Assembly: GCF_000190435.1 (NCBI RefSeq)
Contig: NC_015152.1
Location: forward strand, 3,168,458-3,232,457
Reading direction: 5' to 3'
Origin: Sphaerochaeta globosa str. Buddy
Lineage (GTDB): Bacteria > Spirochaetota > Spirochaetia > Sphaerochaetales > Sphaerochaetaceae
Length of the DNA stretch: 64,000 bases
The notes under the pieces are model-generated. The model had not been told where the DNA came from and did not search any database. It worked only from the letters and a program-made list of their open reading frames with translations. Below are positions 9,607-60,295 of this stretch, piece after piece; position 1 is the first letter of the stretch, and each line of letters starts with the position of its first letter. Position numbers and translations under genes: made by a program.

Positions 9607-9622
9607 TTGGCACGCCTTCTGC
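9607..9622 (+). promoter_or_regulatory. Sigma-54 promoter of the first pspA operon
   Basis: TTGGCACG-CCTT-CTGC: the GG at 9609-9610 and GC at 9621-9622 are separated by exactly 10 nt, the invariant -24/-12 arrangement. The start of transcription would be near 9634, giving a leader of about 45 nt with a small GCCAC/GTGGC hairpin (9655-9667) just before the Shine-Dalgarno AAAGGAGA. A pspF-type activator gene lies 1 kb away. Confidence 0.85.
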
Positions 9623-10614: not shown

Positions 10615-11634
10615 TCAGTTGGTGTCCTGCTCTTCTTCTTGCAGCCGGTCTTGGTATTTGCGGTACAGTCCCCGCAGTTGGTCATAGGTGAGGTTGAGCA
10701 GCTTGGCTGCCTCTTTCTGATTGCCTGAGGCCGTCTTGAGGGCTTGTTTCAGGTACTTGAGGTCAAGTTCCAGGCGTGCTGCTTCAAATTGGCTCAAATC
10801 CAGCTCTGCTTCCTGCAAAACAATCTCTGCTGGCACCTTGCTTCCCTGTTTGAAAGGATTGTCGAAGGGATTGAACTCGAGGTACTCGATCAAGGCCGCA
10901 TCACTGCGGTAGACAGCCCGTTCCACTACGTTTTTCAGCTCGCGTACGTTGCCGGGCCAAGGATAGCACAGCATCTGGGAAACAACTGTCTCGCTGAAGG
11001 AGGGCATTTCCTTGTGTCCGCACTCCAGGGCCATCTTCGAAGCGAAATAGGTGGCCAGGAGGATGATATCTTCACCCCGTTCACGCAGAGGGGGAAGGAA
11101 GAGCACCTCGAAGGAGAGGCGATCGAGCAAGTCTTCTTTGAACTTGCCCTCGTCGCACAAGGCCGGTAGGTCGGCATTTGTTGCTCCGATGATCCGAACA
11201 TTGGTTTCATGGGTTACCGAGGAGCCCACTCGTTCATAGGTACCGTACTCGACCACCCTCAGAATTTTCTCCTGGACTTCCAGGGGAATCAAGCCGATTT
11301 CATCCAGAAAGAGGGTTCCCCCTTCCGCTTCCTCGAACCGCCCCTTACGGGTTTTCTGGGCACCGGTGAAGGCTCCCTGTTCGTAGCCGAAGAGTTCGGT
11401 TTCAATCAGTGAAGGGGGAAGTGCGGCGCAGTTGACCGTCACCAGGTTCTGCTGCCACCTTGGGGAGAGAAAGTGCAGGCGTCTGGCGGCAATTTCCTTG
11501 CCGCTGCCCCGTTCTCCGACCAGCAGCACCGAGCGATTCACCGTTGCAGCCCTGCTGAGCTTGCTTTGGAAGTCAAGAAAGACTTCGCTTTCACCTAGTG
11601 GTTGCTGATTATATCCGGCTTGCACGGCATCCAT
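10615..11634 (-). CDS. pspF: PspF-like sigma-54-dependent transcriptional activator
   Basis: A 339-residue enhancer-binding protein with no N-terminal receiver domain, the layout of PspF. The AAA+ domain has Walker A GERGSGKE, the sigma-54 contact loop GAFTGA (GYEQGAFTGAQ) and Walker B GGTLFLDEIG, then the R-finger region PPLRERGEDI. The C-terminus has a Fis-type helix-turn-helix (NQKEAAKLLNLTYDQLRGLYRKY). It lies between, and opposite to, two pspA operons with sigma-54 promoters, so it is expected to activate both and to be held inactive by PspA. ATG at 11634 has GAGGTG 6 nt upstream; a GTG 9 nt earlier is less likely. Confidence 0.9.
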   Translation of the reverse strand: MDAVQAGYNQQPLGESEVFLDFQSKLSRAATVNRSVLLVGERGSGKEIAARRLHFLSPRWQQNLVTVNCAALPPSLIETELFGYEQGAFTGAQKTRKGRFEEAEGGTLFLDEIGLIPLEVQEKILRVVEYGTYERVGSSVTHETNVRIIGATNADLPALCDEGKFKEDLLDRLSFEVLFLPPLRERGEDIILLATYFASKMALECGHKEMPSFSETVVSQMLCYPWPGNVRELKNVVERAVYRSDAALIEYLEFNPFDNPFKQGSKVPAEIVLQEAELDLSQFEAARLELDLKYLKQALKTASGNQKEAAKLLNLTYDQLRGLYRKYQDRLQEEEQDTN

Positions 11635-11780
11635 GCGTTGCACCTCACTTGGTAAATTTAGCCATCCTTGGCAGGTTTCACCAGCGTTAGGGTATCACAG
11701 CTTGGGGAGTGCGAAAAGAGCAAGGGACGCAATCCTTGATAAAATGGCTATTTAGGCACATTTTTAAAAGTTTTCACTAG

Positions 11781-20407: not shown

Positions 20408-22204
20408 ATGTCTGAAGAAGTATTTTCCCAACGAACAACTACCTGCGGGGCACTGACCAAGGCTGACAATGGAAAAATTGTTGTCCTCAATGGCTGGGTA
20501 CACCGCGACCGCAATCATGGAGCGCTGCATTTCATCAATCTGAGAGACCGTTACGGCATCACGCAAGTGGTGGTCGACGACGATGCTTCCCCCGCTCTTC
20601 AGGCTGTTGCAAGTGAGTTGCACCTCGAATACTGCATTGCCGTTACCGGTATCGTCCGCCAGAGACCCGATTCCATGGTCAATCCCGAGATGTCAACCGG
20701 TGAAATCGAGGTGAAAGCACAAAGCATCGAGATTCTCAGCCGCTGCGCCCCGCTTCCTTTCCAAATCGATGACGGTAAGGAAACCCGCGAGGACCTCAGG
20801 CTGAAATACCGCTACCTCGATCTGCGAAGCCAAGGAATGCAGCAGAGGCTCAAGCTGAGGCATGACTTCATTCTGGCTTGCAGAAAGTACCTTTCTTCCC
20901 GCGACTTCTACGAGATTGAGACCCCGACGATGATCAAGAGCACCCCTGAAGGGGCGCGTGACTTCCTCGTTCCGAGCAGAATCTATGCAGGCAAGTTCTA
21001 CGCCCTTCCCCAGAGCCCCCAGCTCTTCAAGCAGATTCTCATGGTCGGCGGTATGGATAAGTATTTCCAGATCGCCCGTTGCTATCGCGATGAGGATGCC
21101 CGCGGCGACCGCCAGCTCGAATTCACCCAGCTGGACGTAGAGATGAGCTTCGTCAAGCGTGACGATGTCCTTTCCTTGATGGAAGGTCTCTTCAACAGCG
21201 TATTCAGGGAAGTGATGAACTACGAGCTGCCCGCCCGCTTCAGAAGACTCACGTACAACGATGCCCTGAATACCTATGGTTGCGACAAACCCGATCTGCG
21301 TTTCGACGTACCGCTTTGTGACGTAAACGAGCTGGCCCAGAAGAGCAGCTTTGCAACGTTCAAGGATATTGTGGCCAACGGTGGATATGTGAAGGCACTG
21401 TGTGCACCCAAGACGGAAGGAGTCGACTTCTCCCGCAAGTACATCACCGAACTTGAGGACGCAGCCAAGGTCTACGGAGCCCAGGGGCTTGCGTGGATCA
21501 AGGTGGGCGAAAACAAGAGCCTCTCTGGTGGTGTAAGCAAGTTCTTTGCCGGCCTCGAAGCTGAGTTGCTAGCGAAAGTCGATGCCAAGGAAGGGGATTT
21601 GATCCTTTTTGTAGCCCACCAGAATTGGAAGAAGTGCTGTGCAAGTCTGAGCGCTGTCCGCACCAAGCTGGGTCGGGACCTGAAGCTTATCAGAAAAGCC
21701 TTTGAGTTCTGCTGGATCATCGACTTCCCCCTCTTTGAGTACAATGAGGAAGGTGGCCACTGGGAAGCCGCCCACCATATGTTCAGCATGCCCCAGGCTG
21801 AGTACCTGGATACCCTTGAGTCCGATCCGGGCAGTGTAAAGGGTGACTTGTACGACTTGGTCCTCAATGGGTATGAGGTAGCCTCGGGCTCCATTCGTAT
21901 CCATGATGTGGAGTTGCAGAAGCGGATTTTCCGCATTTGCAACTTTGATGACAAAACTGCCGAGGAGCGCTTCGGCTTCTTGCTCAACGCCTTCCGCTAC
22001 GGGCCACCCCCGCACGGCGGCATTGCTCCGGGAGTCGACCGCATGGTGATGATCATGAGCGAACAGACTTCCATCCACGAAGTCATCGCCTTCCCGAAAA
22101 ATACGGCTGCAGTCAGTCCGATGGACGATTCACCGTCGGAAGTCGATCAGCAACAGCTCGACGACCTTCACTTGATCATCAACTATCCCAAGCCGAAAGC
22201 TTGA
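20408..22204 (+). CDS. aspS: Aspartyl-tRNA synthetase (bacterial type)
   Basis: A 598-residue class II synthetase that charges tRNA-Asp (or also tRNA-Asn in a non-discriminating form). An OB-fold anticodon-binding domain occupies residues 1-110 (GWVHRDRNHGALHFINLRDRYG). Class II motif 1 is IETPTMIKSTPEGARDFLVPS, motif 2 contains FQIARCYRDEDARGDRQLEFTQLD, a bacterial GAD insertion lies around residues 290-420, and motif 3 ends in GIAPGVDRMVMIM. Length is normal for the bacterial enzyme. Whether it is discriminating cannot be decided by eye. Confidence 0.97.
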   Translation: MSEEVFSQRTTTCGALTKADNGKIVVLNGWVHRDRNHGALHFINLRDRYGITQVVVDDDASPALQAVASELHLEYCIAVTGIVRQRPDSMVNPEMSTGEIEVKAQSIEILSRCAPLPFQIDDGKETREDLRLKYRYLDLRSQGMQQRLKLRHDFILACRKYLSSRDFYEIETPTMIKSTPEGARDFLVPSRIYAGKFYALPQSPQLFKQILMVGGMDKYFQIARCYRDEDARGDRQLEFTQLDVEMSFVKRDDVLSLMEGLFNSVFREVMNYELPARFRRLTYNDALNTYGCDKPDLRFDVPLCDVNELAQKSSFATFKDIVANGGYVKALCAPKTEGVDFSRKYITELEDAAKVYGAQGLAWIKVGENKSLSGGVSKFFAGLEAELLAKVDAKEGDLILFVAHQNWKKCCASLSAVRTKLGRDLKLIRKAFEFCWIIDFPLFEYNEEGGHWEAAHHMFSMPQAEYLDTLESDPGSVKGDLYDLVLNGYEVASGSIRIHDVELQKRIFRICNFDDKTAEERFGFLLNAFRYGPPPHGGIAPGVDRMVMIMSEQTSIHEVIAFPKNTAAVSPMDDSPSEVDQQQLDDLHLIINYPKPKA

Positions 22205-38486: not shown

Positions 38487-39572
38487 ATGGTAACCAAGGA
38501 AATAATCCAGCAGATTCCAAAAGTGGAACTGCATGACCATCTTGACGGCGGCCTGAGAATTCAGACCATTTTGGACCTGGCCAATGAGCAGCATGTCAAG
38601 CTTCCCAGCGAGGATCCTCAGAAGCTGCATGATTGGTTTGTACGCGGCTGCAGACAAAAAAGCCTCTCCTTGTACCTGGAACCATTCGGGGTAACAACCC
38701 AAGTCATGCAGACAGAAGATGCGCTTAGGCGGGTTGCCTTTGAAGCGGTTGAGGATTTGGCGAAGGAGCATGTCTGCTATGCCGAAATCCGCTTCGCCCC
38801 CATCCTGCACATACATAATGGCCTGAGCCTTGAGCAAGTAGTGCAAGCAGTCCTTGACGGATTGCAGCAAGGGACAAGGCATACAGGCATGCCTACCGGC
38901 CTTATCCTATGCACCATGCGCAACCAGAGCCCCAAGATCAGCCAGACGATTGCCGAGCTTGCAGTAGCATTTGCAGATCGGGGTGTGGTTGGATTCGACC
39001 TTGCCGGCGATGAGATCGGCTACCCTCCCAAGAAGCATCTGGAGGCTTTCCAGTTCATCCGCAATAAAAACTTCAACATTACCATCCATGCCGGAGAAGC
39101 CTTCGGGGTGGAATCCATCTGGCAGGCCGTTCAGCTGTGCGGAGCACATCGTATCGGACACGGAGTTCGCTTGGTGGAGGATATGGGCCTTGATGGAACG
39201 AGGATCGAGGAGATGGGTTCGCTTGCAAACTTCATCCTTGACCGACGAATTCCTATGGAGATGTGCCTGACCAGCAATGTTGGGACCGGGGCTGCAAAAG
39301 ACTATGCAAGTCACCCCTTCCCCATTCTCTTTCGGAATAAGTTCCGCGTCTTTTTGTGCAGTGACAACCGCTTGATGAGCGACACAAACCTTACCAGGGA
39401 AATGGAACTTGCCGTGCAATACTACAACCTGAATATACGCGACTTGGAGAAGATTACAATCAATGCGATGAAGTCAGCCTTCATCCATCATGACCAGAAG
39501 CTCTCCATTATCTACAATGTAATCAAGAAAGGGTATCTACAAATCCGCGAACAATACGGCATTACCGACTAA
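38487..39572 (+). CDS. add: Adenosine deaminase
   Basis: A 361-residue cytoplasmic zinc hydrolase converting adenosine to inosine. Active-site motifs are all visible: the H-x-H in VELHDHLDGGLR, VGFDLAGDEIG, HAGEAFG (zinc His and catalytic Glu), RIGHGVRL, and the Asp pair region LCSDNRLMSDT, the form found in Firmicute-type deaminases. The ATG at 38487 (MVTKEIIQQIP) is 6 nt after a TATGAT box and has no Shine-Dalgarno; ATGs at 38451 and 38469 would lie upstream of the predicted start of transcription. It overlaps the convergent rhomboid gene by 4 nt. Confidence 0.92.
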   Translation: MVTKEIIQQIPKVELHDHLDGGLRIQTILDLANEQHVKLPSEDPQKLHDWFVRGCRQKSLSLYLEPFGVTTQVMQTEDALRRVAFEAVEDLAKEHVCYAEIRFAPILHIHNGLSLEQVVQAVLDGLQQGTRHTGMPTGLILCTMRNQSPKISQTIAELAVAFADRGVVGFDLAGDEIGYPPKKHLEAFQFIRNKNFNITIHAGEAFGVESIWQAVQLCGAHRIGHGVRLVEDMGLDGTRIEEMGSLANFILDRRIPMEMCLTSNVGTGAAKDYASHPFPILFRNKFRVFLCSDNRLMSDTNLTREMELAVQYYNLNIRDLEKITINAMKSAFIHHDQKLSIIYNVIKKGYLQIREQYGITD

Positions 39573-40207
39573 AGGGTTCGCTTGAATACTTCGATGGGAT
39601 TGATGCGCATTCTGATCCTGCAATACAAATAGGCAAATACCAGTCCGCTCAGATGGGTAAGATGCGCTACGTTTCCACCCCGGCCGAACACCTGGCTGGA
39701 CAGCTCAATGATCGCATAGAGGATTACCAGTATCGGAGCTCTGACAGGAATGAAACCAAAAACAAAAATCACCGAATAAGGGTAGAAGACGGCAAACATC
39801 AGAAGTACTGCATAAATCGCCCCGGAAGCTCCGACAAGAATTACATTCGTGCCAGCCAAATAGTAGCTGATGAAACTCACAATGCCGCTGAATAGCCCTG
39901 CAAGCAGATAGAAAAGCAGAAATTCCTTGCTGCCAATGCGCTTTTCCACCATCGAGCCGAAAATAAAAAGGCTGAGCATATTGAACAGAAGGTGGTTGAA
40001 TCCACCATGCACGAACATGTAGGTAAACGGTTGCCACACATACCCGCCAAGCACAAACGAGGGAATCATGGCCAGGTAATATGCACTGCGTGGATATATA
40101 TAGGCGGTAAGCAGGTAGACCAGTGCATTAAGCACCACGAGCTTCAGGGTAAAATTCTTATACGTACCGTCCCGGAATCTCCGGTTTATCAGCGAGGCTT
40201 TATTCAT
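39569..40207 (-). CDS. Rhomboid family intramembrane serine protease
   Basis: A 212-residue inner-membrane protein with six hydrophobic segments. The rhomboid core is complete: VHGGFNHLLFNMLSLFIFG (H-x-x-x-N), catalytic Ser in ILVGASGAIYAVL and catalytic His in AHLTHLSGLVFAYLY. It cleaves membrane helices of unknown substrates. The start at 40207 (MNKASLINRRFRDG) has no ribosome site. TATACT lies 8 nt upstream and a TACTGT 6 nt upstream with TTGACG 17 nt before it, so it may be leaderless too. A perfect palindrome (40243-40261) overlaps its promoter region. Confidence 0.9.
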   Translation of the reverse strand: MNKASLINRRFRDGTYKNFTLKLVVLNALVYLLTAYIYPRSAYYLAMIPSFVLGGYVWQPFTYMFVHGGFNHLLFNMLSLFIFGSMVEKRIGSKEFLLFYLLAGLFSGIVSFISYYLAGTNVILVGASGAIYAVLLMFAVFYPYSVIFVFGFIPVRAPILVILYAIIELSSQVFGRGGNVAHLTHLSGLVFAYLYCRIRMRINPIEVFKRTL

Positions 40208-40242
40208 AGCTATACAGTATAAATTGCTCGCCAAATCGTCAA

Positions 40243-40261
40243 TTGTGCAATTTTTGCACAA
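40243..40261. promoter_or_regulatory. Palindrome TTGTGCAA-N3-TTGCACAA (possible activator site)
   Basis: A perfect 8-bp inverted repeat. Its centre is about 92 bp upstream of the first sigma-54 promoter (-24 GG at 40344), a usual distance for enhancer-binding proteins. It is also just upstream of the rhomboid promoter, so it could serve either. A related 17-bp palindrome precedes the third unit. Confidence 0.5.
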
Positions 40262-40341
40262 CTATCATAGGGTGCGCAAGCAATGCACAGCATTTCGGAA
40301 GGCCCATAGCATACAGGGGCACCCAATTGAAGGATTTCAAC

Positions 40342-40357
40342 TTGGCATGCAAATTGC
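40342..40357 (+). promoter_or_regulatory. Sigma-54 promoter of small RNA unit 1
   Basis: TTGGCATGCAAATTGC with GG at 40344-40345 and GC at 40356-40357, 10 nt apart. The conserved RNA 5' block AGAACAGAG begins 13 nt after the final C, as in the other two units. Confidence 0.85.
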
Positions 40358-40369
40358 ATGGTTATAGCT

Positions 40370-40465
40370 AGAACAGAGCAACATTTTTTTTCATACTCCT
40401 CCTTTTTCATATCGACAGGGTGCCAAGAGATTACCCCAATCAACTTTTGGCATCCTTCTTTTTTT
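40370..40465 (+). ncRNA. Candidate sigma-54-dependent small RNA, unit 1
   Basis: About 96 nt. It begins with the block AGAACAGAGCAAC shared by all three units, then a run of eight U residues, then ACUCCUCCUUUUU, which contains CCUCCUU as in the 16S rRNA 3' tail. It ends in an intrinsic terminator: GGGTGCCAA (40418-40426) pairs with TTGGCATCC (40447-40455, one G-U pair), followed by TTCTTTTTTT. No start codon or open frame is present on this strand. The order promoter, 5' block, U-tract, anti-SD segment and terminator is the same in units 2 and 3. Function is inferred; expression is not shown by sequence alone. Confidence 0.8.
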
Positions 40466-40585
40466 GCCCAGCTTCTGTGAAAAATTGTATTGGTGTTACT
40501 TTTCTTCACACCTACTGCTCTGACTCCTATCACACTTAGTTTACATTTAGCTATATAAATTGTCCTTATGTACATATTTCTAGAG

Positions 40586-40601
40586 TTGGCACGCATGTTG
40601 C
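40586..40601 (+). promoter_or_regulatory. Sigma-54 promoter of small RNA unit 2
   Basis: TTGGCACGCATGTTGC, a full consensus match, with GG at 40588-40589 and GC at 40600-40601. Upstream lie TGTGAA (40476-40481) and TTCACA (40505-40510), half-sites resembling those of the unit 3 palindrome but further apart. Confidence 0.9.
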
Positions 40602-40613
40602 ATTGTAATTAGC

Positions 40614-40716
40614 AGAACAGAGCAACAGTTTTTTTCAAACCTCCTTAAAGTGTGATTTCTTTGGTGCCAGCGGTCCTCTCTCCCCACCCCACAAATTCCG
40701 CTGGCACCATCTTTTT
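40614..40716 (+). ncRNA. Candidate sigma-54-dependent small RNA, unit 2
   Basis: About 103 nt. It starts AGAACAGAGCAAC, then a seven-U run, then CAAACCUCCUUAAAG with the anti-Shine-Dalgarno-like CCUCCUU at 40640-40646. The terminator is a perfect 11-bp stem, GGTGCCAGCGG (40663-40673) with CCGCTGGCACC (40698-40708), followed by ATCTTTTT. No coding potential on this strand. Its 5' block is identical to units 1 and 3 over 13 nt, while the middle and loop differ, the pattern of sibling RNAs that keep a shared seed. Confidence 0.85.
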
Positions 40717-40743
40717 GCCCTGAACTGTGCACTATTTTTGCCA

Positions 40744-40760
40744 TGTGAAGAAATTTCACA
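40744..40760. promoter_or_regulatory. Palindrome TGTGAA-N5-TTCACA before small RNA unit 3
   Basis: A 17-bp inverted repeat, centred about 86 bp upstream of the unit 3 -24 element. Its outline (TGTG-x-A ... T-x-CACA over 17 bp) matches the core of the palindrome at 40243-40261, so both may bind the same activator. It resembles a Crp site but has a 7-nt, not 6-nt, core spacing. Confidence 0.5.
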
Positions 40761-40835
40761 GTACGTGCACACCTCTCACAAATAAAAAACTGTCCATTTG
40801 TGTATATGTATTGTCCAAAAACCACACTATTGTAG

Positions 40836-40851
40836 TTGGCACATGAATTGC
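40836..40851 (+). promoter_or_regulatory. Sigma-54 promoter of small RNA unit 3
   Basis: TTGGCACATGAATTGC with GG at 40838-40839 and GC at 40850-40851, 10 nt apart. Confidence 0.88.
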
Positions 40852-40863
40852 ATAGAGATAGAT

Positions 40864-40964
40864 AGAACAGAGCAACCGTTTTTTCAACCTCCTTTTCGTG
40901 TTTTTACCTTGGGTGCCAGCGAGAAATACCTTCACACCAACCAATTCTCACTGGCACCTTTCTT
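40864..40964 (+). ncRNA. Candidate sigma-54-dependent small RNA, unit 3
   Basis: About 101 nt. Starts AGAACAGAGCAAC, then a six-U run, then CAACCUCCUUUUCG, with CCUCCUUUU at 40888-40896, nearly the same as the 16S rRNA tail. Terminator: GGTGCCAGCGAGAA (40912-40925) pairs with TTCTCACTGGCACC (40945-40958) with one mismatch, then TTTCTT. The T-run overlaps the -35 box of the rlmE promoter, so RNA end formation and rlmE transcription are packed together. No start codon on this strand. The terminator stem shares GGTGCCAG with unit 2 and GGTGCCAA with unit 1. Confidence 0.82.
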
Positions 40965-40991
40965 GTGCCCTTCCTCCTGCTTTGGTATAGT
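40963..40991 (+). promoter_or_regulatory. Promoter of rlmE, leaderless geometry
   Basis: TTGTGC (40963-40968), 17 nt, TATAGT (40986-40991), then six nt (CAAGAC) to the ATG at 40998. No Shine-Dalgarno sequence. Confidence 0.7.
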
Positions 40992-40997
40992 CAAGAC

Positions 40998-41624
40998 ATG
41001 GCAACCAGCAGAAGAGACCGTGCAGACTCCTATACCAAACGTGCACACAAAGAGGGCTATCCCGCCCGTTCCGTCTATAAGCTCGAAGAACTCCAACAGA
41101 GCTTCAACCTCATCAAGAGTGGAGACACCGTCCTGGATGTGGGGGCAGCGCCTGGATCTTGGACGCTGTATACCCACAATGAGCTGATAAAAGGCAAGGG
41201 AACGATTATTGCAGTCGACCTCAATCCCTTGAGCCTCAATCCAGTCCCGGTGACGGTCACGTCCTATGTTGGCGATGCTTTTGGTAAAGAGATGCGCAAT
41301 ACACTCATCTCCCATGGGCCCTACGATGTCATCATCAGTGATGCCGCCCCGATGACCATGGGCAACCGTTCAGTAGACACTTCGCGCAGCGAGAATCTTG
41401 CTGAGCAGGTTATCTACCTTGCCAAGGACCATCTGAAGGTCCATGGCAATCTGGTGGTCAAGATTTTTCAGGGGGGGGGCCAAGTGGAGATGCTCAAGCT
41501 CATGCGCACCCTTTTTGTAAAAGTGAAGCCCTTCAAGCCGAAAGCCTGCAGGGATGATTCATTTGAGATTTATCTGGTAGGTATGGATAAATTGGAAACG
41601 GAGAGTACACCATGCGAATCGTAA
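40998..41624 (+). CDS. rlmE: 23S rRNA (uridine2552-2'-O)-methyltransferase RlmE (FtsJ)
   Basis: A 208-residue SAM-dependent methyltransferase that modifies U2552 late in 50S assembly. The N-terminus has DRADSYTKRAHKEGYPARSVYKLEEL (first catalytic Lys of the K-D-K-E tetrad in the family pattern), then the SAM loop VLDVGAAPGSWT, the acidic position in VIISDAAPMTMGNRSVD (catalytic Asp), and VVKIFQGGGQV with the third catalytic Lys. The G-G-G is encoded by an uninterrupted run of nine G (41471-41479). The leaderless promoter fixes the ATG at 40998. The DUF3842 gene starts inside its 3' end. Confidence 0.93.
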   Translation: MATSRRDRADSYTKRAHKEGYPARSVYKLEELQQSFNLIKSGDTVLDVGAAPGSWTLYTHNELIKGKGTIIAVDLNPLSLNPVPVTVTSYVGDAFGKEMRNTLISHGPYDVIISDAAPMTMGNRSVDTSRSENLAEQVIYLAKDHLKVHGNLVVKIFQGGGQVEMLKLMRTLFVKVKPFKPKACRDDSFEIYLVGMDKLETESTPCES

Positions 41625-57523: not shown

Positions 57524-57584
57524 GAAAAACTCCCTTATCATAGAACAGAGGCACAAACAGCGTGAGCCTGATACAAGGGATATA

Positions 57585-57600
57585 GCAACTTGCGTGCCAA
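57585..57600 (-). promoter_or_regulatory. Sigma-54 promoter of the pdxA-like/tct operon
   Basis: On the minus strand TTGGCACGCAAGTTGC, a full consensus match with GG (57598-57597) and GC (57586-57585) 10 nt apart. Transcription would start near 57573, giving a leader of about 50 nt. Confidence 0.9.
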
Positions 57601-57805: not shown

Positions 57806-59683
57806 TTACTGTTCGAATGCAGCAAATTTACGCCAGAGCGTTGTCCTGCTCAGACCCATTTGCTTGGCAAATGCTTCCCGGCTCAAACCGCTGGTAAGAA
57901 ATTGCTGATAGAGCTCTTCATCCGATACCTTGCTCTTGCGCCGGATTTGCTTGAGAGGTTCATCATGCATCCGCAGGCTGGTGGAGCCGATGTCCAACAA
58001 ATCAATCTCCTGGACCGTGACTACATCGGAAGTATTAAGAATGGCGAGCCTTTCTGCGGCATTCCGTAACTCCCGGATGTTTCCCGGCCAAGGAAAAGCA
58101 TTGAGCGCGGCAATAGCCTGCTCGGTCAACAACGGTTCCTTCAGATTGTGCCGCCTGCAGTACTGCTGGACAAAATGCCTGAACAAAATGCCGATATCCT
58201 CCAGCCTCTCGCGCAGAGGAATCAACTGCAGGCTTAACAGGCTGATTCGGTAAAATAGGTCGAGGCGGAACTTACCCTCCCTCACCTTATCGATAATGGT
58301 ATTGTTTGCTGCGCTGATAATGCGCACATCCACAGGGATTACCATATCAGCACCGATCTTGCGGACCTCACGTTCCTGCAAGACTCTCAAGAGTTTAGCC
58401 TGTACCACAATCGGCATCTCGGCAATCTCATCGAGAAACAGCGTTCCCTTGTGGGCAAGCTCGAACAGACCGGCCTTGCCCCCTTTTGCAGCCCCGGTGA
58501 ACGCTCCATCGGTATAGCCAAACAGCTCGCTTTCCAGCAATTGTTCAGGCAGGGCGGCGCAGTTGACAGCTACAAAAGGCTCCTTGGCACGTGCTGAAGC
58601 ATTGTGGATGCTCTGGGCGAACAACTCCTTGCCGGTACCTGTCTCCCCGAGCAACAAAACGGTGCCGGGAACCTGGCTGAAGCGCCTTGCCTTCTGCACC
58701 AAAGCCTGCATGTGGGGATTCTGGGTAACAATATCGGAGAAACTGTAGCGGGCAACCAATCCCTTGCGATTCAACTCAGTGCGGATTTTATGTTCTGTCT
58801 GCCGTATAGCCTCGGCATTCTGGAACGTATAGAGGAAACCAGCCTTTTCCTCATCCATGCTGATAGGTTGCTGGGTAACCAAGCACTGCTGACCGTTGAT
58901 GGTGACCAGTTCTTCTTTCTGATTTCCGGAATTGAAGGCTTCAGCCCATCTGCTCGAAAAATAAACATCCTCTACCGGCAAGCCTTCCAACGGACTTTTG
59001 CCGAACAAGTTTTCAGCTTGACGATTGCCTGCAATAATTTGGCCGCTGCTGTCGATTGCAAGCAGCGCATAATTTGCATTGTTGAGCAGCGTCCCAAGCA
59101 GGTTTCCTCTGGTCTGGGCACGATCAAGGGAACGGGCAGCGCCAACCGCCTCATTGACGGCGTGCACCACCGCCTGATACCCGGTCTTCACATGGATGAA
59201 GGGGAGATTACGCTCTTCACAGATCCTACACATGGTAAGGCCGCCGACGAACATGGTGCAACCTTGCTTTTGTAAGGTGGATACACCCTCAAGGACATCA
59301 TTCTGGTCGGTAACCTGGAATACAGAGACATCGAGGCCGACCAAGGTGGCCAATTCCTCCTGCTCGCACAACTGTTCATTGGTAATAAGACCGATATGGC
59401 CGTCAGGCGAGGCTGCCTTTGCCTGGGAGAGGGCGGAGAGCAGATCGGCATTACTCCAATTGATGGGCACCACGTGCACTGAAGGTTTCTGCAAGGCAAT
59501 AGCGATAGCAGTAATTCCTCGAGCTACAATAATATCGGCATGAAGTGGTTCAATAACTTGGGGGTCGGTTCCAAAGATATGGGTAGTACTGACGGCCAAG
59601 TCTTGGAGGTCGAAGGTATGGATGACCTCTTCAAAGGCCTGTTGCAATTCAAGATAAGGGACTACGATCAGTATTTTTATCAC
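57806..59683 (-). CDS. PrpR-like sigma-54-dependent activator with PAS domain
   Basis: A 625-residue enhancer-binding protein. The N-terminal about 170 residues match the propionate-catabolism activator (PrpR_N) sensor domain (IVVPYLELQQAFEEV, ADIIVARGITAIAI). A PAS domain follows (about 195-300, AIDSSGQIIAGNRQAENLFG). The AAA+ domain has Walker A GETGTGKELFAQS, the GAFTGA loop (YTDGAFTGAAKGG) and Walker B GTLFLDEIAEM. A Fis-type helix-turn-helix ends the protein (LSREAFAKQMGLSRTTLWRKF). Start is GTG at 59683 with GGAG upstream. It probably senses a small acid and activates the pdxA-like/tct operon. Confidence 0.9.
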   Translation of the reverse strand: MIKILIVVPYLELQQAFEEVIHTFDLQDLAVSTTHIFGTDPQVIEPLHADIIVARGITAIAIALQKPSVHVVPINWSNADLLSALSQAKAASPDGHIGLITNEQLCEQEELATLVGLDVSVFQVTDQNDVLEGVSTLQKQGCTMFVGGLTMCRICEERNLPFIHVKTGYQAVVHAVNEAVGAARSLDRAQTRGNLLGTLLNNANYALLAIDSSGQIIAGNRQAENLFGKSPLEGLPVEDVYFSSRWAEAFNSGNQKEELVTINGQQCLVTQQPISMDEEKAGFLYTFQNAEAIRQTEHKIRTELNRKGLVARYSFSDIVTQNPHMQALVQKARRFSQVPGTVLLLGETGTGKELFAQSIHNASARAKEPFVAVNCAALPEQLLESELFGYTDGAFTGAAKGGKAGLFELAHKGTLFLDEIAEMPIVVQAKLLRVLQEREVRKIGADMVIPVDVRIISAANNTIIDKVREGKFRLDLFYRISLLSLQLIPLRERLEDIGILFRHFVQQYCRRHNLKEPLLTEQAIAALNAFPWPGNIRELRNAAERLAILNTSDVVTVQEIDLLDIGSTSLRMHDEPLKQIRRKSKVSDEELYQQFLTSGLSREAFAKQMGLSRTTLWRKFAAFEQ

Positions 59684-59701
59684 TCCGACACTCCGGAATT
59701 T

Positions 59702-59730
59702 AGTGTAGCATGGACTGCCGGTCTTTACAA
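59702..59730 (-). promoter_or_regulatory. Promoter of the PrpR-like gene
   Basis: On the minus strand TTGTAA (59730-59725), 17 nt, TACACT (59707-59702), 18 nt before the GTG start. Its -35 box overlaps that of the divergent promoter. Confidence 0.55.
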
Positions 59731-59753
59731 AGCTTACCAGCTCTTGGTATTGT
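59724..59753 (+). promoter_or_regulatory. Promoter of the divergent small membrane protein gene, leaderless geometry
   Basis: TTTACA (59724-59729), 18 nt, TATTGT (59748-59753), then five nt (CGGCT) to the ATG at 59759. Confidence 0.5.
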
Positions 59754-59758
59754 CGGCT

Positions 59759-60295
59759 ATGACTTTTACAACCACCATTCAATACCTCTTATTGGCACTT
59801 TTGGCACTTTTTACCCTGTTCAACATTTATTCGCTGACTACAGGCAAGAAGAAAAGAAAGCTTGCCGCAGCAAATTATCAGCAGACACTCCGCTCCCTCG
59901 AGCAGAAAGCGTATGAGCTGATGCAGCAGAAAAAGCTGAAATTCGATGTGAAACAGGGATATATAAATGACCTCAATGAGGGAATCCTGCTCACCTTCGA
60001 TACAAAACACAGGATGGTGGGCATTGTTCTCAAGGATGCAGAATACCTGTTCTCCTATGAGGAGTTTGTTTCATGCAAACAAACTTACGAGACGTTGGAG
60101 AATAAGAAAATCTCCAACATCTCGGTGGAAATCGAGACGAAGGACAGCATCATCAGCTTGCTGTTCGGCTCAAAAGCTTGGAAACCAAATTCCTACCTGG
60201 GCAAATTCCTGCTCTCAGACTCCAAGGAGCTCTGCACTTTGCTGGAAAAGTACTGCCTGGTCAAGGAGACTAGTTCGCCTTTGACTGGTCAATGA
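59759..60295 (+). CDS. Hypothetical membrane-anchored protein
   Basis: A 178-residue protein, not recognised. One N-terminal helix (TIQYLLLALLALFTLFNIYSL) is followed by a basic stop (GKKKRKL), a coiled-coil segment (QQTLRSLEQKAYELMQQKK) and a strand-rich cytoplasmic domain (FDTKHRMVGIVLKDAEYLFSYEEFVSC). The frame is open upstream, but that part overlaps the divergent PrpR-like gene, and the ATG at 59759 sits 5 nt after a -10 box. Its last 26 nt overlap the convergent MscS gene. Confidence 0.7.
   Translation: MTFTTTIQYLLLALLALFTLFNIYSLTTGKKKRKLAAANYQQTLRSLEQKAYELMQQKKLKFDVKQGYINDLNEGILLTFDTKHRMVGIVLKDAEYLFSYEEFVSCKQTYETLENKKISNISVEIETKDSIISLLFGSKAWKPNSYLGKFLLSDSKELCTLLEKYCLVKETSSPLTGQ

Follow-up and report, generated by a model that had tools for sequence, protein, structure and literature searches.

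In Vibrio, each of the Qrr1-5 small RNAs (sRNAs; RF00195) is transcribed from a sigma-54 promoter of its own, and LuxO, a regulator of the NtrC family, has enhancer sites some 100 bp further upstream (PMC11407668). The streptococcal csRNAs, which are controlled by CiaRH, are found in hosts without hfq and carry an unpaired anti-Shine-Dalgarno sequence together with CAU as an anti-AUG triplet (or an anti-UUG triplet) (PMC3091779). AbcR1 and AbcR2 (alpha-r15) of alphaproteobacteria are tandem homologous RNAs with anti-Shine-Dalgarno motifs, and the transporter components that they silence are periplasmic binding proteins (PMC8844928). In enterobacteria one sRNA, GcvB, controls many mRNAs for amino-acid and peptide transporters (PMC11878033). 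The LhrC siblings of Listeria are multicopy, are governed by a two-component system and pair at ribosome-binding sites (PMC4132741). The Sphaerochaeta family described here unites traits that are known separately: sigma-54 promoters on each sibling as in Qrr, Hfq-free anti-start pairing as in the csRNAs, and, as a prediction, targets like those of AbcR.

The window, a stretch of 64,000 nt that was analysed as a whole, contains three direct repeats of 55 nt starting at 40342, 40586 and 40836 (Table 1). Repeats 2 and 3 are 80% and 73% identical to repeat 1 over the 55 nt. GG-N10-GC was seen in all three units, and when the whole window was scanned for TTGGCAY-N5-TTGCAT with zero mismatches, only these three starts were found. 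In each unit the block AGAACAGAGCAAC lies 28 nt past the promoter start and 12 nt past the GC. Since this is the position expected of a sigma-54 start, the block was taken as the RNA 5' end. The 3.3 Mb genome has four exact copies of the block, of which three are those in the window. The remaining one is antisense within the coding region of a DctP-like secreted receptor gene (L001), which was considered as a target and dropped, as it is a single gene only.

The U tracts of copies 1, 2 and 3 are 8, 7 and 6 nt long, CCUCCUU is present in all three copies, and the hairpins, with the stem GGTGCCA(A/G), have z scores of -2.7, -4.3 and -3.8. The T run of copy 3 is weak (TTTCTTG), and therefore its termination is the least certain of the three. 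A scan of the region for intrinsic terminators made no calls; the definition used by the tool expects loops shorter than the 14-24 nt found here. Loops of 14-24 nt are typical of the window's genus, and those of other genera are short. No sigma-70 promoters were found in the region by a consensus scan. The first-pass annotation had described three tandem units, each with promoter, block, U tract, CCUCCUU and hairpin, at these coordinates and without an open reading frame (ORF) on the sRNA strand. The units were confirmed, and no ORF on that strand is conserved or preceded by a Shine-Dalgarno sequence. Small ORFs inside the transcripts were rejected as candidates because none is conserved; a 40-aa ORF at 40358 begins 5' of the transcript.

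Table 1. Features of the sRNA locus, in window coordinates; sRNAs, promoters and binding sites are predictions.
Feature	Position	Strand	Basis or comment
Flanking rhomboid-family gene	39569..40261	-	Pfam PF01694, synteny
Dyad 1 of copy 1, TGTGCAATTTTTGCACA, proposed enhancer-binding-protein site	40244..40260		Conserved in the genus, flanking DNA not
Dyad 2 of copy 1, TGCGCAAGCAATGCACA, 29 bp on from dyad 1	40273..40289		Conserved
Sigma-54 -24/-12 promoter, copy 1	40342..40359	+	Pattern scan, conservation
sRNA copy 1, predicted, about 98 nt	40370..40467	+	Covariance-model match, 114.8 bits
Anti-start region of copy 1: AGAACAGAGCAAC, U8, CAU (anti-AUG), CUCCUCCUU (anti-Shine-Dalgarno)	40370..40407	+	Triplet survey, duplex pairing
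Terminator hairpin, copy 1	40414..40458	+	Folding, covariation
Dyads of copy 2, TGTGAAAAATTGTATTG and TGTTACTTTTCTTCACA	40476..40510		Conserved in copy-2 loci of the genus; palindromes weaker than in copy 1
Sigma-54 promoter, copy 2	40586..40603	+	Repeat comparison, pattern scan
sRNA copy 2, predicted, about 102 nt, C-rich loop CUCUCUCCCCACCCCACAA	40614..40715	+	Covariance-model match, 133.4 bits
Anti-start region of copy 2: block, U7, CAA (anti-UUG), CCUCCUU	40614..40646	+	Triplet survey, duplex pairing
Terminator hairpin, copy 2	40662..40709	+	Folding, covariation
Dyads of copy 3, TGTGCACTATTTTTGCC and TGTGAAGAAATTTCACA	40726..40760		Conservation
Sigma-54 promoter, copy 3	40836..40853	+	Repeat comparison, pattern scan
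sRNA copy 3, predicted, about 102 nt	40864..40965	+	Covariance-model match, 103.2 bits
Terminator hairpin, copy 3, weak T run	40911..40959	+	Folding
Flanking rlmE-like (FtsJ) methyltransferase gene	40998..41624	+	Pfam PF01728, synteny

A degenerate pattern of promoter plus block, with 0-2 mismatches, was present in 19 of the 25 other genomes of the genus, and the reversed-pattern control gave 0. A first covariance model, built from 17 sequences, matched 119 of 139 Sphaerochaetaceae genomes. The matches cover 17 of the 22 genera and every one of the 26 genomes in the window's genus, with typically one or two copies per genome and at most four. Most of the 20 genomes without a match encode RpoN. 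In an independent scan, the named records with matches belonged to Sphaerochaetaceae/Spirochaetales. A second model of 46 sequences was run on 393 genomes of the phylum; strong matches were found only in Sphaerochaetaceae and weak ones (38 bits or less) in 21 other genomes. Two covariance matches (L248 and L249) were discarded as chance, being a reversed reading of protein start regions. The interval between the rhomboid gene and rlmE houses the sRNAs in many genera, sometimes with insertions between copies, and in other genera they lie elsewhere.

The 5' block is the most conserved part of the RNA. The C-rich loop of copy 2 hardly varies over most of the genus, and the loop CUCUCUCCCCACCCC is kept across genera in RNAs of the copy-2 type. 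In the terminator stem, 7 of the 11 pairs were altered on both sides and 97.8% of cells pair. The covariation score of the stem was 0.497 compared with 0.210 after shuffling (reached by 0 of 500 shuffles), and it was 0.15 or less with the partner slid. The 46-sequence alignment agrees on the covariation, with the caveat that this alignment leans to the model. Since the T run is on one strand, the RNA strand is fixed. Searches against Rfam (4227 families) at gathering and relaxed thresholds (E up to 10) returned only chance eukaryotic matches. No small-RNA paper on Sphaerochaeta or Sphaerochaetaceae was found in the open-access literature searched; subscription literature was outside the search. 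At the level of sequence this is a real sRNA family that spans Sphaerochaetaceae, has sigma-54 promoters and seems not to have been described before; its transcription is inferred.

The first-pass annotation had inferred a new family of about 100-nt sigma-54 sRNAs that belongs to no recognised family, had suggested a covariance-model search in spirochaetes, and had stated that the idea would be refuted if related genomes lacked the pair of block and promoter. The search was run and gave strong matches in Sphaerochaetaceae, the pair was present in related genomes, and the sequence stayed outside any Rfam family even at the relaxed threshold. The family is supported by comparative evidence (promoter, block and terminator in 17 genera, compensatory changes in the hairpin, dyads, RpoN and the lack of an Rfam match) and not by transcript data. 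We regard it as very likely that these RNAs exist under sigma-54, although no transcript data are available and sigma-54 dependence is inferred.

The genome encodes RpoN (828554-829021), as do 136 of the 139 Sphaerochaetaceae genomes. Because RpoN is near-universal, its co-occurrence with the sRNAs is uninformative as evidence. The -24/-12 pattern is enriched genome-wide, with 48 matches against 16 for the reversed control, and the general criterion for a sigma-54 sRNA (a genome with RpoN, and GG-N10-GC with a start 11-13 nt beyond it) is satisfied. Paired 17-bp dyads of the form TGTGMA-N5-TKCACA lie about 70-100 bp upstream of each promoter. Within the genus, the two dyads per promoter are the only conserved upstream DNA, and the DNA from dyad to promoter is unconserved. 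Closely spaced dyad pairs were found only in this intergenic region among 549 kb of genome scanned. Judged from sequence alone, the layout of dyads and promoter is the anatomy of control by an enhancer-binding protein (EBP); the EBP control put forward in the first-pass annotation is consistent with the conserved dyads and likewise remains an inference.

Similar to Qrr, the Sphaerochaeta RNAs are siblings with a sigma-54 promoter per copy and upstream dyads. Unlike Qrr, they are in tandem in one intergenic region, they have no RF00195 match, whether at the gathering threshold or with E relaxed to 10, and their pairing region is anti-Shine-Dalgarno/anti-start, whereas Qrr RNAs have target-specific stems. 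Furthermore, the Sphaerochaeta genome has no LuxO orthologue among the EBPs tested and no Hfq, so that Hfq-dependent action is ruled out. The resemblance to Qrr that had been noted earlier held for the promoter plan only, and not for Hfq or for sequence.

Among the EBPs, two PrpR-like proteins adjoin TTT transporter genes and one PspF-like protein adjoins psp genes. A further EBP, at 20856, was dropped as a candidate activator; it has GAFTDG instead of GAFTGA and no terminal helix-turn-helix. The two EBPs that are left over, at genome positions 854923 and 1388528, are response regulators, each with a histidine kinase as its partner. Both are AtoC/NtrC-like, yet they score under every curated cut-off, and both are conserved in Sphaerochaetaceae. 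In a 1.2 Mb genome in which the sRNA is present (G030), the only strong full-length EBPs recovered were orthologues of these two. None of the EBPs tested was a LuxO orthologue, the best reaching 418 bits against a curated cut-off of 800 bits. We infer that the sRNA activator is likely to be one of the two conserved response regulators, and which one is unsettled.

A gene for an RpoS-like sigma factor (genome 1393208-1394142; L079:13209-14143) lies near regulator 1388528. In the family genomes examined (L289-L301) this gene is preceded by a sigma-54 promoter, which recalls the RpoN-RpoS cascade of Borrelia. Its dyad, GKGTCA-N4-TGACMC, is unlike that of the sRNAs except in genome G160, where the sigma gene has an sRNA-type dyad and the 1388528-type regulator has lost the receiver along with part of the helix-turn-helix. 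A link of the sRNAs to regulator 1388528 through this sigma gene therefore failed. Since the sigma-gene dyad differs, regulator 854923 is mildly favoured by elimination, which makes it a possible activator and no more. A 1388528-type regulator without receiver and with a partial helix-turn-helix was seen in sRNA-negative genomes (L285, G160:C14; L284, G162:C6).

The conserved 5' stretch shared by the family members (GAGCAACAG-U7-CAUACCUCCUU) gives AAGGAGGTATGAAAAAAACTGTTGCTC when read in reverse, in which we recognise a Shine-Dalgarno site, then a start codon, then the opening codons of a signal peptide. Of 36 distinct copies, 34 have CAU or CAA (anti-AUG or anti-UUG) as the triplet behind the U tract, and CCUCCU (anti-Shine-Dalgarno) follows. 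This pairing region had been missed by the first-pass annotation. The target sample comprised 459 genes from stretches that make up about one sixth of the own genome, called with a crude gene caller. Each of the three RNAs formed duplexes of lower energy with the 459 gene starts than with windows from inside the coding sequences of those genes (p = 1e-24, 7e-11 and 8e-11). Moreover, signal-peptide genes paired better than others with the three RNAs (p = 2e-7 to 4e-5); with copy 2, their duplexes had -19.8 kcal/mol and those of others -16.3 kcal/mol (p = 8e-6). The signal-peptide bias was reached by none of 40 shuffles of the full RNA, and 4 of 60 shuffles of the 15-nt 5' block alone reached the observed bias. 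The pairing preference stems mainly from the U tract and CCUCC. A U-tract/anti-Shine-Dalgarno RNA would favour signal-peptide genes anyway, because such genes begin with AUG-AAA-AAA after a good Shine-Dalgarno sequence. In the 459-gene sample the 5' block alone had no preference for gene starts, and the C-rich loop of copy 2 alone had none either. Given the block shuffles and this lack of preference, the strong conservation of the block is not fully explained.

Eight high-ranking predicted targets are substrate-binding proteins of five kinds (Pfam Peripla_BP_4, SBP_bac_1/8, DctP, Bmp and TctC). At L210:8102, copy 1 is predicted to pair with GGAGG, AUGAAAAAG and UUGCUC. The predicted targets include receptor genes at genome positions 908101 and 2185441. 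The pattern AUG-AAA-AAA-NNN-GUUGCUCUG was tried as a target finder and gave mostly noise; a Bmp-type receptor (L172/L217) was retained from that search as a candidate. Anti-start action is likely, with repression itself inferred, and a regulon of receptor genes is plausible, being predicted and unproven. No member of the Hfq family was found in the own genome or in 18 of the 19 genus members scanned, and thus any sRNA action would be Hfq-independent. The lone Hfq match in the genus (L258, G004:C20:2187-2375) is in a fragmented metagenome assembly, and contamination is possible.

Similar to the csRNAs, the Sphaerochaeta RNAs are siblings without Hfq that have an unpaired anti-Shine-Dalgarno and anti-start sequence and, as proposed here, two-component control. 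The csRNAs, in contrast, belong to Firmicutes, have CiaR/sigma-70-type promoters and adopt a two-hairpin fold, while the Sphaerochaeta RNAs have sigma-54 promoters and belong to Sphaerochaetaceae; order and sequence also differ, with no detectable sequence relation. AbcR1/2 share the tandem arrangement, a similar length and the anti-Shine-Dalgarno sequence; their repression of periplasmic-binding-protein mRNAs is only predicted for the Sphaerochaeta RNAs. AbcR1/2 bind Hfq, have RpoD promoters with LysR-type control and differ in sequence and fold, and the Sphaerochaeta RNAs had no match to them in Rfam. With GcvB the Sphaerochaeta RNAs share the predicted control of many transporter mRNAs by one kind of sRNA. 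GcvB differs in being a single-copy, Hfq-dependent RNA with a G/U-rich seed under GcvA and sigma-70. LhrC differs in LisRK control, UCCC loops and its occurrence in Firmicutes. With no Rfam match, no Hfq and no CiaR or LuxO, the Sphaerochaeta RNAs fall outside all of these named systems.

The family, its promoters and dyads, the terminator covariation, the anti-start signature and the better pairing at gene starts are seen in the sequence. On balance we lean towards a fuller proposal, in which siblings activated by sigma-54 and an EBP repress transporter-receptor mRNAs independently of Hfq; expression, sigma-54 dependence and targets are inferred. The locus would encode three trans-acting sibling sRNAs of a family specific to Sphaerochaetaceae. 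In response to some nutrient or stress signal, an NtrC/AtoC-type EBP, most likely regulator 854923 or 1388528, would bind the paired TGTGMA-N5-TKCACA dyads, and RpoN polymerase would then transcribe each sRNA up to its own hairpin. The unstructured 5' region (GAGCAAC, U6-8, CAU/CAA and CCUCCUU) would pair with translation initiation regions, covering there the Shine-Dalgarno sequence, then the start codon and then the AAA-AAA lysine codons, the best cases adding the signal-peptide-codon sequence UUGCUC, and would block ribosome loading without Hfq. The preferred targets would be mRNAs of secreted substrate-binding proteins of ABC, TRAP and TTT transporters. Transcription, sigma-54 dependence, repression, targets and signal are all inferred. 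The proposal makes a concrete prediction, with a single RNA 5' region, a single list of start sites and two candidate activators, and the family offers a natural test case for how an sRNA works in an Hfq-less spirochaete and for what sigma-54 senses in free-living spirochaetes.

An unlikely alternative is that these are general anti-Shine-Dalgarno RNAs that dampen many mRNAs at once, as a brake in growth arrest or starvation, and not regulators of a transporter regulon. For this reading, the RNAs carry ACCUCCUU, the sequence of the 16S rRNA 3' end, start regions as a class outpair internal coding sequence, and the bias is driven by the U tract and CCUCC. ACCUCCUU is the usual 3' end of 16S rRNA. 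However, the conserved CAU/CAA, U tract and GAGCAAC, together with the bias to signal-peptide genes, argue for narrower targets, and we infer that the stoichiometry against all mRNAs would be unfavourable. It also seems improbable that the 13-nt block, the C-rich loop or both pair with a few specific mRNAs as in Qrr, the U tract and CCUCC being protein-binding or stability elements. No part of the RNA is more conserved than the block, copy-2 type RNAs of different genera keep CUCUCUCCCCACCCC, and the csRNAs too contain a conserved stretch whose role is unknown (PMC3091779). However, the order of anti-start triplet and anti-Shine-Dalgarno sequence in 34 of 36 copies is hard to square with a protein site, and neither block nor loop alone favours gene starts. 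Very unlikely is a protein-sequestering RNA, CrcZ- or Csr-like, that titrates an RNA-binding protein under sigma-54. Simple motifs are repeated over several copies, and CrcZ is under sigma-54 control, but there is only a single U tract and a single CCUCC per RNA, unlike the repeated motifs typical of sponges, and Hfq, the partner of Crc, is absent. A recent DNA duplication or a regulatory or structural DNA repeat, for which the tandem intergenic arrangement might speak, is all but excluded by conservation in 17 genera, compensatory hairpin changes, the one-strand T run and the divergence of the DNA between copies.

The preferred reading, sigma-54 siblings that would act at translation starts, can be extended. 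Possibly, sigma-54-driven, Hfq-independent anti-translation-start RNAs are a general class in Spirochaetota, of which the Sphaerochaetaceae family is one conserved branch; the weak matches L247, L251 (U7-CAA-UCCUC) and L252 (U6-ACAU) would then be divergent members. If so, Hfq-less spirochaetes would gain a single switch that lowers many nutrient-receptor mRNAs through a generic start region. These three loci (L247, 190-273; L251, 175-289, minus strand; L252, 160-290, minus strand) are in other spirochaete families and are possible distant relatives, with sigma-54 promoters followed by short terminated stretches without an obvious ORF.

Other sigma-54-like promoters were seen in this genome. 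In the window, those at 9607 and 11781 precede PspA-like genes, with a divergent PspF-like EBP at 10615-11643 (minus strand), and the set reads as a sigma-54 phage-shock system in a spirochaete. Another, at 57583-57600 (minus strand), is at a TTT-transporter operon adjoined by a PrpR-like EBP (57806-59782, minus strand); a second pair of TTT operon and PrpR-like gene is at genome 2929652-2932700. Finally, the sigma-54-like promoter TTGGCACGCTTGTTGCAA (genome 3102293-3102310, minus strand) is upstream of an hsp20-like gene.
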